A stretch of DNA of 64,000 nt from Acidobacteriota bacterium. Its GTDB lineage: Bacteria; Acidobacteriota; Blastocatellia; UBA7656. This document shows, in pieces, positions 13,686-22,420 of this stretch. A program made the position numbers and the translations under genes. Where the stretch lies: NCBI GenBank assembly GCA_040754075.1, contig JBFMDH010000019.1:62001-126000 (forward strand), read 5' to 3'. The notes beneath the pieces are model-generated. The model had not been told where the DNA came from and ran no database searches. It was given only the letters and a program-made list of their open reading frames with translations. Numbering within the stretch: position 1 is the first letter of the stretch; each line of letters opens with the position of its first letter.

Positions 13686-15260
13686 TTAAACCTGTGCGTA
13701 GGAATGCAAACCTACTAACAGGAAGCTGACACCTAACCAGGTGAAAATCACTAAGGCAAAACCCACCAACGCAAAGTAGGCGCTTCGTCGTCCGCGCCAA
13801 CCATGCGCAATGCGTGTATGTAAAAACGCCGCGTAAGCCATAGTTGCCACCAATGCGCCGGTCTCTTTCGGGTCCCATCCCCAATACCTGCCCCAGGACT
13901 CATTCGCCCAGACCGCGCCGGTAATCAGTAAAATGCAGAGTAATGGAAATGCCACCCCAACGGTTTTATAAAGCAGAGAATCTATCGTCGCCAGCGACGG
14001 CATGGCTTCAACCAGGGCTTCACGTTTCCAGGCAAACAGCGCCACCAGGAATAGACAAACCCCCAGGCTGATTACTGCCCCAACCTCGACCGGGTTCGAT
14101 TTGGCGCTGATGTTTAATAAGCCTTCCTTCCCTTTTTCAGCAAGCCACATATTCCCCAGTTGTTGATTGCCGACCATTGGCGCATCCAATCCTTGCTTCT
14201 TTAACCACTCGCCTAACATTTCGTGTCTGACAGGAGAAACCCGCGCTGCGACATCCGCTTTATTCACCTGACCGATTTGAAAGAAAAGTACAAAAATGGC
14301 AACGATCTGCATCACCGTCGCGACGCGAAAGATATTCCAGCCAAGTTTCTTTAATTTTTCGTCCTTACGATTCCACTCAATGATAAAGCACACCATCGAG
14401 GTAAGAATCAATGCCAGGGTAATCGCCATCATTACTCCCACACCGGGCAACGAGGCGCGCACCGGCAAAGGAGATTTTTCGATATTGACCAGCACCCCAT
14501 AATCAGCCCTGAACGGAATTCCATAATCACCGATGGTTCCGTAAATCAATAAACCATAAAGCGCCACCGCAATGGCAATGGCTTCGGAGCGCACCCCATC
14601 TTTAATTAAATAAGCGAATGCCAATCCGAAACTCACCAGGCATACGCCATATGCCACGGTCGCCACGGTCACATGAATCGGTCGCCAGTAACTATCGAGA
14701 ATCGGCATCAGGGTTCGGATTTCATTACCAAACAAGATGGCGATGGTCAGAATGATGGCAATGATTGGCAAAGCCAGCGCCCCCAGAAATTCATATTTGG
14801 GTTTACGCACAATGACCAGCGTGGCAATCGCTGCACCGCAACAAAAACCCAGCGTCAGAGCATACAAGGTATCAAGCGGGTAATAGCGCCAGAAGCCATT
14901 GATTCCGCCTTTCCAGCCTTCCGCCTCACCGGCTTCAATCCAGCGAATCATCCAGCCTGAAAAGTTAAAACAAAACCCCAATCCAAGAGTGAGCAACCCC
15001 AGTTTGTACAACACCTTTTCTTTAACGAAGAGATTCGTCACCATGACAGTCGCGGCGGTGATGTAACAAATCAGCGCCAGCACGGTGAGTGAGCCTTCTT
15101 TTAAAAAGTTACCGGGACCAAATTTATAGCGACTATAAATGAGAATGATAGCGGCAAGCAGTGGCAAAATGACCGGCATCATCCCTTTGATTTTTTCAAA
15201 GAAAGTCGGCTCAATTTCACCAAACCCGGTTAAGTTTTTCCGTTCAACAACACTACTCAT
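13686..15260 (-). CDS. ccsA: cytochrome c biogenesis protein CcsA-like (System II)
   Basis: This polytopic membrane protein of 524 residues carries the haem-handling WWD signature in its last third (SWGRYWGWDPKETGAL) and a C-terminal set of helices typical of CcsA/CcmF/CcmC-type proteins. With ResB it forms the System II complex that exports haem and attaches it to CxxCH sites of cytochromes c. It is longer than classic CcsA (about 320), with additional N-terminal helices and a periplasmic loop. The ATG at 15260 was chosen because GGAGGAAGTAAAG precedes it; it overlaps the resB stop by eight bases. Tetraheme cytochrome 18549-20081 is a natural client. Confidence 0.9.
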   Translation of the reverse strand: MSSVVERKNLTGFGEIEPTFFEKIKGMMPVILPLLAAIILIYSRYKFGPGNFLKEGSLTVLALICYITAATVMVTNLFVKEKVLYKLGLLTLGLGFCFNFSGWMIRWIEAGEAEGWKGGINGFWRYYPLDTLYALTLGFCCGAAIATLVIVRKPKYEFLGALALPIIAIILTIAILFGNEIRTLMPILDSYWRPIHVTVATVAYGVCLVSFGLAFAYLIKDGVRSEAIAIAVALYGLLIYGTIGDYGIPFRADYGVLVNIEKSPLPVRASLPGVGVMMAITLALILTSMVCFIIEWNRKDEKLKKLGWNIFRVATVMQIVAIFVLFFQIGQVNKADVAARVSPVRHEMLGEWLKKQGLDAPMVGNQQLGNMWLAEKGKEGLLNISAKSNPVEVGAVISLGVCLFLVALFAWKREALVEAMPSLATIDSLLYKTVGVAFPLLCILLITGAVWANESWGRYWGWDPKETGALVATMAYAAFLHTRIAHGWRGRRSAYFALVGFALVIFTWLGVSFLLVGLHSYAQV

Positions 15261-16962
15261 CTTTACTTCCTCCTGTGATGGATTCAACCAATGAATTAAA
15301 CCGCCCCTCAAATGCTTGACGATTGCGGTTGGTATTGGCTCCCACAAATACCTTCGCCCCTTTGTCGTCCGGCTCGATGACTGCCCACACCCGCTGGTGT
15401 GAAAAGAAAAATACCCCACACAACGCTGCGCTTAAAATGAAAAATCCCAAATAAGCCGGTGTGCGCCCCGGGTCGTATTGAACCGTCAGCGTGTGTCCCT
15501 GTGCGGCTTTTTCAAAATCACTCAAGATGATTTTATAACCATTCACCAGCAATAGATTCTCCTGCCCATCTTTCTGCTTGGCGCTCTCTGCCTGTTTAAA
15601 GGTCTCTTCGGCAAAATGAGGATTGAACGCAAAAGCTACCCGGCGTTTCCCATCCGGGGTTTCAATATTGAGTTCGGCAACCGGATTATTATAATCGGGT
15701 GAAACCGAATCTGCGCCTTGTCGGGTAATCTGAAAATCCGGGAAGAATCTTGAATAAGTAATTTTTCCGATACCGGCAACCTCGACCGCTCCATTTCTGG
15801 GAATGGTCACCTCTTCGGCGTTGCCGCCCTTTTCCGGCTCTAGTCGAAGTTTAATCGACCTGGCGTAACCGAAAGCCGTGAATTTGGATTGGAATAATCG
15901 GTAGCCCTTATAATCATAGGGATTATTCAGATGCACCAGTGCATCCTCTACAAAATCGCCGTCCTTGATTTTCACATAGCTCAGCCAGTCAATCGTATTG
16001 GTGGCTTCGAGTCCGCCTTCGGGTCGAATGAGTTTTTGTTGCAAATCCGTGCATTCAACCGTAAACGGCAACGGCGCTTCGCCCATCGCCGGACCGTCAA
16101 CCGCCATCTTCTGGGTGAAGATTTTATTGGCGGATTCGCCCGGCGTGATTTCCATCATGCCGCTCACATCATAGCGACTGGTCAAAAATCCGCCGATAAA
16201 AATAAACATCAAAGCGACGTGAACAATATATGCGCCCAAACGGTTCCAGGCGTTCATCTGACCAAAAACCGTCTTCTTGCCGTTATCCTCATTGATGATG
16301 AAATCAAAGCGAATGCCTCTCAGAAGAAAATAGAGGCTGCCGACTAAACCGGTTAAAAATAAAATCCAGAAAATTACCGTATGCGCAAACAACACGTAGA
16401 TGGATAAAAAGAATAGCCCCAGAATGAGCGATGCGATTAGCCTCGACTCGTTTACCGCAGATTTAATTTCTCTTAAATGAAGCCAGGTCGACTGTATCTT
16501 TTCTGCGACCTCTTGCGAACCGGACGGTAAACTGGTCTCTGCATGAAACATTTGCGCTTTAACAAAATTGGCAGAGGCTTTGGTTTTGGGTTTGACGATG
16601 TATTGCCAGGCGGTTGGGAAGCGATCAATCGATGCCAGAATGATATTCAAGGCAGTGATCGCCAGCAACAGAGTAAAATACCAGGAGTGATAGATATTAA
16701 AAAAATCAAGTTTCGTGTAGATGATTCGCTGTGCCGGCGTCAGCTTGGCGTAGTATTCGGCAAAGCCTTCGACCTCTACCTGCATGATTAACATGCCAAT
16801 CATGCAACAGACCAGCACGATTGAAAGCATGATAATGCCGAAGCGCACGGAACTCAGTAACATTAAAACTTTATCAACCAGCGATACGCTTTTTGCCGCG
16901 CGTGTCTGATTGACAGAAACCGTCTCGGTCTTGGCAGTAATTTCAGTCTCACTTGAAGACAT
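15253..16962 (-). CDS. resB: ResB-like cytochrome c biogenesis protein (System II)
   Basis: This 569-residue protein has three or four N-terminal membrane helices (from about residue 30, including GIIMLSIVLVCCMIGMLIM and YFTLLLAITALNIILA), the SIDRFP segment common in ResB, a large extracytoplasmic domain (about 255-475) and a final helix near 500 (AYLGFFILSAALCGVFFF). ResB works with CcsA in haem delivery and holding the apocytochrome. The two genes overlap by eight bases. Conserved region FQSKFTAFG (ResB: YQSSY type) supports the call. Confidence 0.92.
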   Translation of the reverse strand: MSSSETEITAKTETVSVNQTRAAKSVSLVDKVLMLLSSVRFGIIMLSIVLVCCMIGMLIMQVEVEGFAEYYAKLTPAQRIIYTKLDFFNIYHSWYFTLLLAITALNIILASIDRFPTAWQYIVKPKTKASANFVKAQMFHAETSLPSGSQEVAEKIQSTWLHLREIKSAVNESRLIASLILGLFFLSIYVLFAHTVIFWILFLTGLVGSLYFLLRGIRFDFIINEDNGKKTVFGQMNAWNRLGAYIVHVALMFIFIGGFLTSRYDVSGMMEITPGESANKIFTQKMAVDGPAMGEAPLPFTVECTDLQQKLIRPEGGLEATNTIDWLSYVKIKDGDFVEDALVHLNNPYDYKGYRLFQSKFTAFGYARSIKLRLEPEKGGNAEEVTIPRNGAVEVAGIGKITYSRFFPDFQITRQGADSVSPDYNNPVAELNIETPDGKRRVAFAFNPHFAEETFKQAESAKQKDGQENLLLVNGYKIILSDFEKAAQGHTLTVQYDPGRTPAYLGFFILSAALCGVFFFSHQRVWAVIEPDDKGAKVFVGANTNRNRQAFEGRFNSLVESITGGSKDE

Positions 16963-17073: not shown

Positions 17074-17799
17074 TCAGCCTTTTTTCGGTGGCTCGCTGGG
17101 TCTTATTTCCACACGACTCGGTAAAGCCCTTGGGTTCATCTTCAATAAATTCAAGACCACTTCCGCGACATCCTCCGGGTTCAATTTCCAGGTCGTGGCT
17201 TTATCGGTTTTCTGATGACGACCAAAATCCGTATTGACCGAACCGGGCATCACATAACTGACCCGGATATGCTCGTGACGCACTTCCTGCATCAAGGCTT
17301 CGGAAAATCCAACTAAACCAAACTTGGTTGCACAATATGCCGCCGCTCCCGCAAAAGCTTCCTTCCCCGCCAGACTTCCGATGTTGATGATATATCCGCC
17401 CCCGCGTTTCTTCATTAGCGGAATCGCTTCGTGGCAACAATAAAAAACTCCCGAAAGATTGATCGCCAGAGTTTGCTGCCAATCGGTTATCGCCAAATCT
17501 TCAACGGTCGAAAAACAACCGACGCCGGCGTTATTGACCAGAATATCAATCCCTGAAAGCCTCTGCTCCACTTCTTGAAACAGATGCTGCACATCTTCAA
17601 AGTTACTCACATCGCAGGGGCTTCCGAATACCCTGTTGCCATAAACTTGTTTTAACGCTTCTACCTTCTGTTGTACCGCAGCCTCATCCCTCGCACATAA
17701 AAAAACCTTGGCTCCCTGTTCCAAAAGCGCGATAACAATTGCTTCACCAATCCCCTTGGTGCCTCCGGTAATCAATGCGTTTTTATTTTTAAGTTCCAT
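17074..17799 (-). CDS. short-chain dehydrogenase/reductase
   Basis: This 241-residue enzyme has the classical SDR features: TGGTKGIGEA (cofactor binding, residues 11-20), CDVSN, NNAGVG (88-93 region), the catalytic Ser in INIGSLAGKEAF and the YCATKFGL (YxxxK) pair, followed by VMPGSVNTDF. It is an NAD(P)-dependent oxidoreductase with unknown substrate, most similar in style to 3-oxoacyl-ACP reductase-like broad-function members. It lies 57 bases downstream of the maf gene on the same strand. Confidence 0.93.
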   Translation of the reverse strand: MELKNKNALITGGTKGIGEAIVIALLEQGAKVFLCARDEAAVQQKVEALKQVYGNRVFGSPCDVSNFEDVQHLFQEVEQRLSGIDILVNNAGVGCFSTVEDLAITDWQQTLAINLSGVFYCCHEAIPLMKKRGGGYIINIGSLAGKEAFAGAAAYCATKFGLVGFSEALMQEVRHEHIRVSYVMPGSVNTDFGRHQKTDKATTWKLNPEDVAEVVLNLLKMNPRALPSRVEIRPSEPPKKG

Positions 17800-17856: not shown

Positions 17857-18456
17857 TCAGGTAACGATCTCGTCAATCAGGGAAAAACCCAGGCGTTTTC
17901 CCAACCGGTAAACCAGCGGCACAGGCAAGCCAACGACATTCAAATAATTTCCGGCAATCTCTTCGACAAAGGCTGCCGCATAGCCTTGAATCGCATATCC
18001 ACCCGCTTTGCCTTTATACTCCCCTGTTGAGATATACCAATCGATTTCATCCTGTGAGAGCGGAGCGAACCGCACCAGAGTTTTTTCAAAATCAACAACC
18101 TCTTTTTTGGAATCGATGTCATAAAGCGCAACCCCGGTCATGACCGCGTGCCATCGACCAGCCAATACTTTCAATATTTCTTTGGCGTTCTCTTCGTTTA
18201 AGGGTTTGCCGATGATTCGACCTTCAAATACCACAATCGTATCTGCACCTAAAACCAGCCCGGTTTCGAGGTTTTTAGCGACGTCAACAACTTTGGCTCT
18301 GGCAATCCGAATAATATAATCGGCAGGGGCTTCATCTTTATGGAAACGTTCATCAATGGAACTGGGTGAGATAGAAAAATCCAGCTTGAGGGAATTTAAA
18401 ATTTCAGAGCGTCTTTGAGAACCGGATGCTAATATTAGTTTTTTAGGATTTGGCAT
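17857..18456 (-). CDS. maf: Maf-like nucleotide pyrophosphatase
   Basis: This 199-residue protein matches the Maf family, pyrophosphatases that remove non-canonical or modified nucleotides. Signature blocks are LASGSQRRSEIL (residues 9-20), VLGADTIVV, IIGKPLNEENAKEIL, MTGVAL, DWYISTGEYKGKAGGYAIQG and YLNVVGLPV. The DxSxxDE-type segment reads ISPSSIDERF. The ATG at 18456 has AGGAAAG upstream. It is divergent from the tetraheme cytochrome gene with a 92-base shared upstream region. Confidence 0.95.
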   Translation of the reverse strand: MPNPKKLILASGSQRRSEILNSLKLDFSISPSSIDERFHKDEAPADYIIRIARAKVVDVAKNLETGLVLGADTIVVFEGRIIGKPLNEENAKEILKVLAGRWHAVMTGVALYDIDSKKEVVDFEKTLVRFAPLSQDEIDWYISTGEYKGKAGGYAIQGYAAAFVEEIAGNYLNVVGLPVPLVYRLGKRLGFSLIDEIVT

Positions 18457-18548
18457 TTCACTTTCCTGGAATTGGGATGATAGAGTTAGCTATCATAGCA
18501 CAAGGCATTTATTAAAATAAAAATCAATCATTTATTTGGAGGCGTATT

Positions 18549-20081
18549 TTGCGTAGAAAAATTTCCCTAGCCGTTTGGTTTGCCTTTACCTTAACGATTT
18601 CTACGATGTATTACGGATGTACCGGAAGCAATGAAAGCGAATTTGAGGAGCAGAATGTAACCGTAAATTTCAATATTAATGAGCCAAAAATCAAGGAAAA
18701 GCTCGGAGACGACGACGGCTATGCCTTTGCCATTCATTATGGCTCGGACATTCACGGAAGCCTTGAAACCTGTGGCTGACCGGCCCACCCGATGGGTGGA
18801 CTGGCACGGCGTGTCAGCTATATCAAAGCTTTTAAATTTCGCTCGAATAATGAAGTCCCGACCCTTTATGTCGATTCGGGAAATCTCTTTACCGACGATA
18901 AAGTGAGTAATGGAAGTTTACCTTCGGAAGTAATCGCTAAAAATAAATGGGTGGTCAAAGGTTATGGAGAATTTCGCCATGACGCGGCAAACCTCACCTA
19001 CAGCGATTTGCCTTATGCTGCCGAGTTGTTGAAAAAAGAGGGTTATGAAGCGCGCATTAAAGAACACCCGTTTATCAAACGGCTGCTCTCAGCCAATATT
19101 AAACCGGTCTCGGATACCTTAAACGCCCCCGTTCCTTACCTCATTCGCGAGGTCAACCTTCGTCGCGGCACACCGAATAAAAAACTGCGGGTTGCGATTG
19201 TCGGATTCACTGAAGAGCGACCGCAGATGACCAGTCAGGAACCCAATGCTCTGGCGGGCTTTACTATCGAAGACCCGTTTGAGGCTGCCCGGAAAATTCT
19301 CCCGGAAATCAAACAAAATGCCGATTTTATTGTCGTTTTAGCCTATATGGATGATTTGAAGGTGCAACGCCTGGCTTCTGAAAATCCTGAAATCGATTCG
19401 CTGATTTACGGTAGACACTTAGGGAGCATGAACGAGCCGACTCACTTCAATCGCGCCACCTTAACCAGCGCCTACGACCAGACCAAATACCTCGGCGAAT
19501 TGCGTGTCTATCTTAAGGGAGATGGCTCAGTTGAAAATCTGCTCAATCGTTATGTGCCGCTTGATTCCGATATCCCTGATGATCCGCAGGCATTGACAAC
19601 CGTCACAACGGCTCACGATGAGTTTACCAATGAACAGAGCAAAGCTGCCAAAGCCAGCATTCAGCCGACTTCGGTTCTATCTTCCAATAACTCGCCCTTC
19701 GCCGGTGGCGATAAATGTGCCGCTTGTCATCAGGAAGAGCACGCCGTCTGGCAAAAAACCGGGCACGCCCATGCGATGGCAACACTCGAAAACAAAAATC
19801 AACAGTTTGATAATGAATGTGTGAAATGTCATGTCGTGGGTTTTGGTCAGGGGGGATTTCAATCCCTGACTAACACACCCCAGTTTGCCAATGTGCAATG
19901 TGAATCCTGTCACGGGCCTGGCAAAAGTCATGTTGCCAATCCGCAAAAAGGCTATGGTTTTATGCCAACGCCGAATGGCTGTGTGCAATGTCACACTCAA
20001 CCCAATAGCCCGGATTTTGAGTTCAAATCCTATTGGCAAAAAATCAAACACGGAAAACGCGAAGTGGCGCAGGCTTTTTAA
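18549..20081 (+). CDS. candidate selenoprotein: lipoprotein-like metallophosphatase/tetraheme cytochrome c with in-frame TGA
   Basis: The gene starts at TTG 18549, six bases after GGAGG. The leader ends in a lipobox-like YYGC (residue 24). A UshA-like metallophosphatase half follows (SDIHG near 66-70, then VDSGN), then four CxxCH haem motifs in the last 160 residues (CAACH, CVKCH, CESCH, CVQCH), as in c554-like cytochromes. One in-frame TGA at codon 77 (18777-18779) splits the frame; coding is continuous on both sides (CG, stop, PAHPMGGLARR). In relatives as I recall them this block reads CGC, so Sec would replace the second Cys. Full length would be 510 residues. The next downstream ATG (18792) has no ribosome-binding site. 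Alternatives are a nonsense mutation or a base error. Haem attachment would rely on System II, encoded nearby. Confidence 0.72.
18777..18817 (+). promoter_or_regulatory. possible bacterial SECIS region after the in-frame TGA
   Basis: Two overlapping hairpins follow the TGA. The downstream one pairs CTGGCAC (18801-18807) with GTGTCAG (18811-18817), seven pairs with one G-U, around loop GGC; its loop starts 28 bases after the TGA and opens with G, which fits the bacterial SECIS pattern as I recall it (loop 16-37 bases away, G among the first two loop bases). The upstream one pairs CCACCC with GGGTGG (18785-18799) around GAT, extended by CCGG with CTGG. The two share CTGG at 18801-18804, so the extended forms exclude each other. 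Confidence 0.5.
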
Positions 20082-20096
20082 TCGGCAGGTTTTCTT

Positions 20097-20546
20097 ATGA
20101 TGACCGAATTGCTCAAACTTCTTCCGATGATTCTCCGCAAAGCGGGTGATTCGGAAGAAGCGCGTGAGCAAGCGGTCTTTGCCGCCTGGCTGGTTTCGGT
20201 CGGCTCGCAAATCCGCCAAATTTCCAGACCCCTTAAATTGGAGAAAAAGACTTTAATCATTGCGGTTCTAAGCGCAAACTGGCGCGCTCAACTTCATAAG
20301 ATGCGCGAACCGCTGATCTTTAAATTGAATTCGATTCTCGGAACGCCCACCTTGAGAACTATTGAATTTGTCATAAACCCGGATAAAATTGTCGAAGCCC
20401 AAAAACCGCCCCAGGAAATTTCATTTATCGCCCCCGAAGAGCATCAACTCCAGTTACGCGACAAAGCCGAGGCGATTCCCAATACGGATTTACGCGAGGC
20501 TTTTTTAAGAGCCGCTGGAAAATGTCTGGATCGAAGGTACAGGTAA
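20097..20546 (+). CDS. DciA-like (DUF721) protein
   Basis: This 149-residue protein matches the DUF721/DciA pattern: a helical start, a WLVSVGSQIRQISRPLKLEKKTLIIAVLSANWRAQL core (WxxxVG, then a KH-like beta-alpha fold) and a charged tail. DciA in many bacteria helps load the replicative helicase DnaB. It starts 15 bases after the cytochrome gene, and its last codons run to the ABC ATPase gene, so it may share their transcript. Function by homology is moderate, because C-terminal parts vary and this one is short. Confidence 0.75.
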   Translation: MMTELLKLLPMILRKAGDSEEAREQAVFAAWLVSVGSQIRQISRPLKLEKKTLIIAVLSANWRAQLHKMREPLIFKLNSILGTPTLRTIEFVINPDKIVEAQKPPQEISFIAPEEHQLQLRDKAEAIPNTDLREAFLRAAGKCLDRRYR

Positions 20547-21487: not shown

Positions 21488-21550
21488 ATTTCATCCTAAC
21501 CAACCACGATTCTCTTTTTCCCTTCTTACCAAATGAAGAGAAAGGATTCT

Positions 21551-22420
21551 ATGAATAGCTTTATTGTCCGTTCAACGGGTTTGTTAGTTTTAACTACGAC
21601 AGCATTTTATTATTCCGGTTTAAAAAATGGATTATCCGGTGATGCCGCTTACCTGCTTTTCTCGGAGTGCCATTTAAAAACGCCTGAACTTCCTGAACTT
21701 ATTGCGATCCCCTATTCTCAACTTGCAATTCCCTATCCTCAACCCTCAACCCTCAATCGCTCCCCTCTCCCTTTATCACCAATCTTCCAACCCATAAAAT
21801 ATCTTTCGTTATCAGATGTAAATCTTCAGCGGACGGATTTAGGCGGAGTTATTGACGGCTTACAGCGCAAGTACTCCCGTATGACAACCCTCGAAGCCAG
21901 CTTTTTACAGGTTTACCAGGCGCAGGATGGCAGAATTATTCGAGAATCGGGAAGCCTAATTTTGAAAAGACCGGGCAAAGCCCGGTGGGATTACCACTCA
22001 CCCGAAAAGAAAATTTTTGTCTCGGATGGCAAAAATATTTTCTTCTATGTTTTCGGAGAGGCTATTGCTACGAAAACTTCAATCCGCAATTCCAGCGACC
22101 CCCAGATTCCTTTTTTATTTCTGCTCGGCCGCGGCGACCTGCGCAGAGATTTTTCCCGCATCGAATCGTTAAACAGCGAACGCGCTGTTGAAGCCGGTAA
22201 CTGGATTTTACGATTGGTTCCTCAAAAAGCGCCTGAAGAATTCAGGAAACTCCTCGTCGAGGTCAATCCCAATAATTTTTCGGTCAAACGATTAATCATT
22301 TTTGAACGCAGCGGCGCGCGGATGGATTTTGTTTTAAGCAACGTTCGTGAAAACGTCAAAGTCTCCGATTCCCAATTTCAATTTTCGCCGCCGCCCGGAG
22401 TTGCAATCAAACAGCAGTGA
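21551..22420 (+). CDS. lolA: LolA-like outer-membrane lipoprotein carrier
   Basis: This protein of 289 residues has an N-terminal hydrophobic segment, a Pro/Ser-rich low-complexity linker (about 45-85) and a LolA/LolB fold from about residue 100: LQRKYSRMTTLEASFLQVYQ, GSLILKRPGKARWDYHSPEKKIFVSDGKNIFFY and QFSPPPGVAI at the end. LolA ferries lipoproteins across the periplasm, which implies an outer membrane. The ATG at 21551 has AAAGGA upstream; a second ATG lies at 21533. The linker's DNA has repeated CTCAACCCTCAA-type units and looks inserted. Confidence 0.85.
   Translation: MNSFIVRSTGLLVLTTTAFYYSGLKNGLSGDAAYLLFSECHLKTPELPELIAIPYSQLAIPYPQPSTLNRSPLPLSPIFQPIKYLSLSDVNLQRTDLGGVIDGLQRKYSRMTTLEASFLQVYQAQDGRIIRESGSLILKRPGKARWDYHSPEKKIFVSDGKNIFFYVFGEAIATKTSIRNSSDPQIPFLFLLGRGDLRRDFSRIESLNSERAVEAGNWILRLVPQKAPEEFRKLLVEVNPNNFSVKRLIIFERSGARMDFVLSNVRENVKVSDSQFQFSPPPGVAIKQQ

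Follow-up and report, generated by a model that had tools for sequence, protein, structure and literature searches.

Within the window, by which we mean the whole 64-kb stretch of DNA analyzed here, a continuous reading frame extends from a TTG codon, preceded by a GGAGG ribosome-binding site, through a single TGA to a TAA stop (Table 1), just as an initial sequence-only reading of this DNA had described. The TGA at 18777-18779 is the sole in-frame stop between TTG 18549 and TAA 20081. On its 5' side the frame encodes a signal peptide followed by the conserved stretch DDGYAFAIHYGSDIHGSLETCG, and on its 3' side PAHPMGGLARR is followed by four CxxCH motifs, in agreement with the GGLARR block and the CxxCH motifs reported in that reading. 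The leader had also been called lipobox-like. Judged by its sequence, the prediction of a signal peptide is safe, but the segment STMYYGC fits the lipobox [LVI][ASTVI][GAS]C poorly by eye, and that the protein is a lipoprotein is only possible.

Table 1. Positions in the window of the gene and of the features assigned to it.
Feature	Position	Strand	Details and basis
Predicted UshA-like tetraheme selenoprotein gene	18549..20081	+	TTG start, single in-frame TGA, TAA stop; 510 residues with Sec
GGAGG ribosome-binding site	18538..18542	+	6 nt 5' of TTG start; sequence
TGA predicted to be read as selenocysteine	18777..18779	+	Homologue column, SECIS, dN/dS comparison
Cys-Gly-Sec (CGU) motif: Cys75, Gly76, Sec77	18771..18779	+	
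N-terminal signal peptide region, poor lipobox (YYGC)	18549..18626	+	Sequence; AlphaFold helix 2-22
UshA-type (5'-nucleotidase fold) domain, residues ~56-370	18714..19658	+	Structural match; dimetal ligands mostly lost
Tetraheme cytochrome c554-like domain	19716..19994	+	CxxCH starting at residues 390, 424, 451 and 478
Predicted bacterial SECIS stem-loop CUGGCAC-GGC-GUGUCAG	18801..18817	+	7-bp stem; apical loop 28 nt after TGA

In the 64-kb window, just one other pair of long stretches is joined by a same-frame TGA, and this pair proved to be simply two ordinary consecutive genes. A general reassignment of TGA in the genome is ruled out, as had been argued from the sequence, because the neighboring genes at 21533-22420, 17857-18456 and 17074-17799 end normally at this codon. 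The same normal usage would suit an explanation in which TGA 18777 is a real stop, left by a pseudogene or by a sequencing error that splits an ordinary Cys protein, for which the substitution of one base, TGC to TGA, would suffice. However, in comparisons with two same-family relatives and a named Blastocatellia MAG, dN lies at 0.08-0.37 and dS reaches high or saturated values on both flanks of the TGA, which points to purifying selection on either side of a codon that is retained in all three relatives. The low dN, the high dS and the retention of the TGA therefore indicate that the frame is neither a decayed gene nor the product of a sequencing error.

These values bear similarly on the choice of start codon. 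An ATG at 18792 opens a 429-residue frame of the kind that a gene finder would call, which raises the question as to whether the gene yields just a shorter, cytoplasmic product, with the upstream part serving as a leader. Yet the product of this frame would have neither the signal peptide that is required for c-type heme attachment nor the fold's first strand, and the sequence preceding the ATG, DIHGSLETCG included, shows conservation at low dN. A start at ATG 18792 is thus extremely improbable.

The identity of the residue at the TGA was examined across homologues. A survey with the NCBIfam model NF041198 covered 396 Acidobacteriota genomes, 198 of which contained matches. In 74 CxU/CxC members from this phylum the column was read out as TGA in 51 cases and as Cys in the other 23, the remaining Acidobacteriota proteins read out being genuine UshA enzymes, apart from a single derived protein. 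A scan of genome contigs with the window protein as a single sequence gave no matches; a profile built from 21 relatives, searched against the genome contigs, gave 80 loci. Among the named-genome loci, with the window excluded, 14 have TGA in the column and 60 have Cys, with no other residue, making the window the fifteenth TGA; the named genomes belong to Planctomycetota, Myxococcota, Thermodesulfobacteriota, Nitrospirota, Verrucomicrobiota, Armatimonadota and others. The proposal that the TGA replaces a Cys codon is therefore borne out, and the check suggested with it, a search for homologues with TGA at the same position, was passed.

The genome itself encodes a paralogue on contig C4 (L026, 1501-2976, minus strand) with the sequence FTGELHGNLEPCGU-KEPRQGGLAR, in which TGA occupies the same column (EPCGU). 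One TGA of this gene is used as Sec and a second serves as its stop. A second paralogue, on contig C20, is heme-free, reads GNLELCDCNVPRGGLARR and has Cys in the column (ELCDC). The clade of L026, L099 and L100 consists entirely of Sec forms, and both copies are present in the genomes G331 and G251, which together imply that the duplication is older than these genera. With TGA in the same column in three close relatives, in the paralogue, in 51 Acidobacteriota members and in other phyla, with no further stop in frame, and with a SECIS element present (see below), the explanation by a real stop can be regarded as already refuted by independent copies of the codon, and on this comparative evidence its probability is practically negligible.

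In a FastTree tree of 146 rows, computed with the CxU residues masked, the window protein groups with L051, L055 (same family) and L119 (Blastocatellia bacterium nzgw74), each a Sec form. On this tree Sec and Cys must have replaced each other at least 14 times, counted without direction, and well-supported branches force at least 6 of these changes. Such exchange can also be followed at a single chromosomal position. In Blastocatellia the gene lies between a divergent maf and dciA, and since the gene in this arrangement is a Sec form in three cases (the window, L055, L119) and a Cys form in L120, the two residues replace each other at a single syntenic locus. The divergent maf adjoins the gene across Acidobacteriota (17857-20546 in the window; L055, L064, L073, L108, L119 and L120), with dciA or mltG flanking the gene on its other side. 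The conserved neighbors maf, dciA, mltG and an ABC protein gave no functional clue. On the opposite strand, within 2 kb of the tetraheme gene on its upstream side, lie mutually overlapping ResB and CcsA-like genes for cytochrome c assembly (System II; 13686-16962 in the window).

Downstream of the TGA, the codons for LARRVS coincide with a predicted SECIS hairpin. In a position-fixed test, the complete 7-bp stem was found in 31 of 65 Sec forms, as compared to none of 79 Cys forms. Likewise, a stem of at least 5 consecutive base pairs occurs in 38 of the 65 Sec forms, where synonymous shuffles lead one to expect 5.8, while the Cys forms contain it in 2 of 79 cases against an expectation of 2.1. 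The two strands of the stem covary (CTGGCAC/GTGTCAG, CTCGCCC/GGGCGGG, CTAGCAC/GTGCTAG, CTGGCTC/GAGCCGG and TTGGCGC/GCGTCAA), with compensatory pair types at varying stem positions and loops of GGC, GGA or GUC. The published bSECIS model describes a loop of 3-9 nt with an early G, located 16-37 nt after the TGA, and a stability of -7.5 kcal/mol or lower (PMC13188914); the window hairpin, with its GGC loop at 28 nt and -10.7 kcal/mol, agrees with each of these features.

The stem is absent from this position in approximately 27 Sec forms, mainly those with KK or other residues instead of RR, in which a different register must be used. When hairpins were searched for under loose conditions, Sec and Cys forms could not be told apart (49/65 vs 57/83, with 88 of 195 shuffles passing). 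In addition, folding of the naked 60 nt from the TGA favors a rival hairpin (-19.5 kcal/mol) over the SECIS. The SECIS is preferred over this rival because it is conserved, and a ribosome positioned on the TGA would mask part of the competing hairpin. Comparative sequence evidence shows TGA 18777 to be read as Sec under the direction of the predicted hairpin: SelB together with tRNA-Sec would insert Sec at this codon, directed by the stem with the GGC loop 28 nt downstream.

The machinery for such a reaction, for which a search had been proposed, is present in full. The genome of this member of the Acidobacteriota, which probably belongs to the Blastocatellia (G000; 7.6 Mb, 100% complete), contains the complete set of selA (565.9 bits), selB (383.5 bits), selC, encoding a tRNA-Sec with anticodon TCA (UCA in the RNA; 65.5 bits vs a cut-off of 47), and selD (353.2 bits). 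The selD gene (L019, C29:72690-73613) also encodes a selenoprotein, its in-frame TGA lying at the usual Sec position in the motif SCAGU. Across the survey, selA was found in 46 of 47 other genomes with the Sec form, but it was also found in 18 of 21 genomes where just the Cys form was read, so that co-occurrence of the machinery lends weak support.

Together, the Sec machinery, the column of Cys and TGA and the added SECIS element uphold the original proposal of a selenoprotein, and the recoding event is settled by several independent lines of evidence. The gene at 18549-20081 is predicted to encode an exported UshA-like CxU selenoprotein of the NF041198 family, and as far as its identity as a selenoprotein is concerned, this assignment is very nearly certain.

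The sequence-only reading had treated this type of selenoprotein as undescribed, and in this respect it was mistaken. UshA-like sequences (COG0737) with the motif CxU, 76 in number, were listed in the Global Ocean Sampling survey of Zhang and Gladyshev in 2008 (PMC2398784), and UshA-like CxU selenoproteins appear again in reviews from 2022 (PMC9312934) and 2026 (PMC13188914), the latter with NF041198. In the literature searched, no function was found for the UshA-like multiheme proteins, nor any mention of lost dimetal ligands in the group. The type is therefore already known but uncharacterized, and the window protein is a slightly divergent new member of it. It matches NF041198 (UshA_like_PCGU) over both domains, with a common UshA-plus-cytochrome architecture in which the CxU motif of the UshA-like domain is followed by the tetraheme domain, and with the CGU motif at the same place. 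Nevertheless, it carries ETCGU instead of PCGU, and its score of 266.6 bits lies below the curated cut-off of 275.

The C4 paralogue scores 192.5 bits against the same cut-off, and a same-family protein in G251 reaches 275 bits. Just 12 of the 198 matching Acidobacteriota genomes pass the cut-off, and most Sec forms among the Acidobacteriota loci L029-L118 fall under it. The NF041198 cut-off leaves most acidobacterial members unnamed, and the proteins are probably shortened in annotation.

Other known families resemble the window protein over only part of its length. It shares a related N-terminal region with NF049981 (UshA-like family 2, CxxU), but scores 25.7 bits against a cut-off of 140, with a different motif and no full-length match. 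With the multiheme c-type selenoprotein family ExtKL (NF040886) it shares just the C554-like heme stretch (17.1 bits vs a cut-off of 250). Similarly, cytochrome c-554 (1bvb) has a heme-binding stretch like the C-terminal domain of the window protein, but possesses neither a UshA-like domain nor Sec.

An AlphaFold model, computed from a 72-row alignment, has a mean pLDDT of 88.7. In VIA-align comparisons, residues 56-370 match CD73 (Z ~28), E. coli UshA (Z 27.6) and SoxB (Z ~27), while the C-terminal part is recognized by Pfam as Cytochrome_C554 (E 3.8e-15) and matches 1bvb by sequence (E 1.7e-12). Sequence matches and a confident model thereby show a 5'-nucleotidase-type fold joined to a four-heme cytochrome c554-like domain. 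As compared to the UshA/CD73-type 5'-nucleotidases, with which the fold is common, the four hemes take the place of the nucleotidase C-terminal domain, and most of the dimetal ligands are absent.

This second difference was followed residue by residue. Eight positions (D, H, D, N, H, H, H, H) are fixed in 17-18 of 18 canonical relatives, and we take them to be the dimetal ligands of the UshA fold. None of the eight is conserved among the 74 CxU/CxC proteins, and the window protein retains two, Asp67 and His69 of the DxH motif. The residues that are invariant or nearly so in the 74 proteins are instead Gly70, Cys75, Gly76 (73 of 74), Sec/Cys77 and the turn glycines Gly83 and Gly84, and the Cys-Sec pair lies in the loop after the first strand, near the DxH metal motif in sequence. 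The loss of the metal ligands together with the retention of the CxU/CxC residues shows the group to have, as predicted from these positions, the fold of a phosphatase without its metal site. The earlier designation as a metallophosphatase is thus correct as to the fold, but not as to the metal site.

It might nonetheless be proposed that the selenoprotein is still an active metal-dependent phosphoesterase or nucleotidase, in which Sec acts as an extra metal ligand. The 5'-nucleotidase fold and the two residues kept from DxH would accommodate such an activity, and Sec does ligate metals in formate dehydrogenase and NiFeSe hydrogenase. However, the other six ligand positions are replaced in the window protein and unconserved in the group, and L027, which possesses neither the Asp nor the His of DxH, still has CxC, leaving this proposal rather improbable. 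A second alternative takes its cue from SoxB, which is among the nearest folds and to which there is a weak sequence match (TIGR04486): the protein would perform SoxB-like sulfur or selenium chemistry on a sulfur-substituted compound or carrier, with the hemes as electron partner. Yet the similarity reflects the common fold, the dimetal ligands have not been retained, and the conserved neighbors maf, dciA and mltG point to no pathway; we consider a SoxB-like role unlikely.

The conserved residues suggest that the old metal pocket may instead have been taken over for redox chemistry. The Cys-Sec pair would form a selenenylsulfide and trade electrons with the hemes of the fused tetraheme domain, and the protein would act outside the cytoplasm as a heme-linked thiol/selenol oxidoreductase, with compounds of sulfur or selenium, peroxides and protein disulfides as candidate substrates. 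On the basis of the sequence and the predicted fold, we give this mechanism roughly an even chance of being correct. There is an equal prospect that the UshA-like CxU/CxC group as a whole is a pseudo-metallophosphatase turned redox enzyme, its Cys-Sec pair wired to the tetraheme domain. Should the redox mechanism hold, heme-linked selenol oxidoreductases of this kind would, with the same balance of probability, represent a type not yet characterized.

The finding also bears on the use of Sec in these bacteria. A search for formate dehydrogenase, covering the type TIGR01553, gave no full match to this Sec enzyme in the genome; of the 48 Acidobacteriota genomes that encode a Sec form of the UshA-like protein, 4 contain the enzyme, each time with TGA. 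Because it occurs in only 4 of 48, UshA-like proteins may be among the main Sec users in these bacteria, as judged from a comparison with the TIGR01553 type of formate dehydrogenase. What had been an entry in a list of selenoproteins becomes a testable idea, namely that a protein with the preserved shape of a phosphatase has shed its metals and acquired a redox pair linked to hemes. Furthermore, the occurrence of Sec and Cys forms in one and the same syntenic setting provides matched pairs for asking what selenium adds. In many Acidobacteriota, the UshA-like CxU protein may be a main reason for keeping the Sec machinery.
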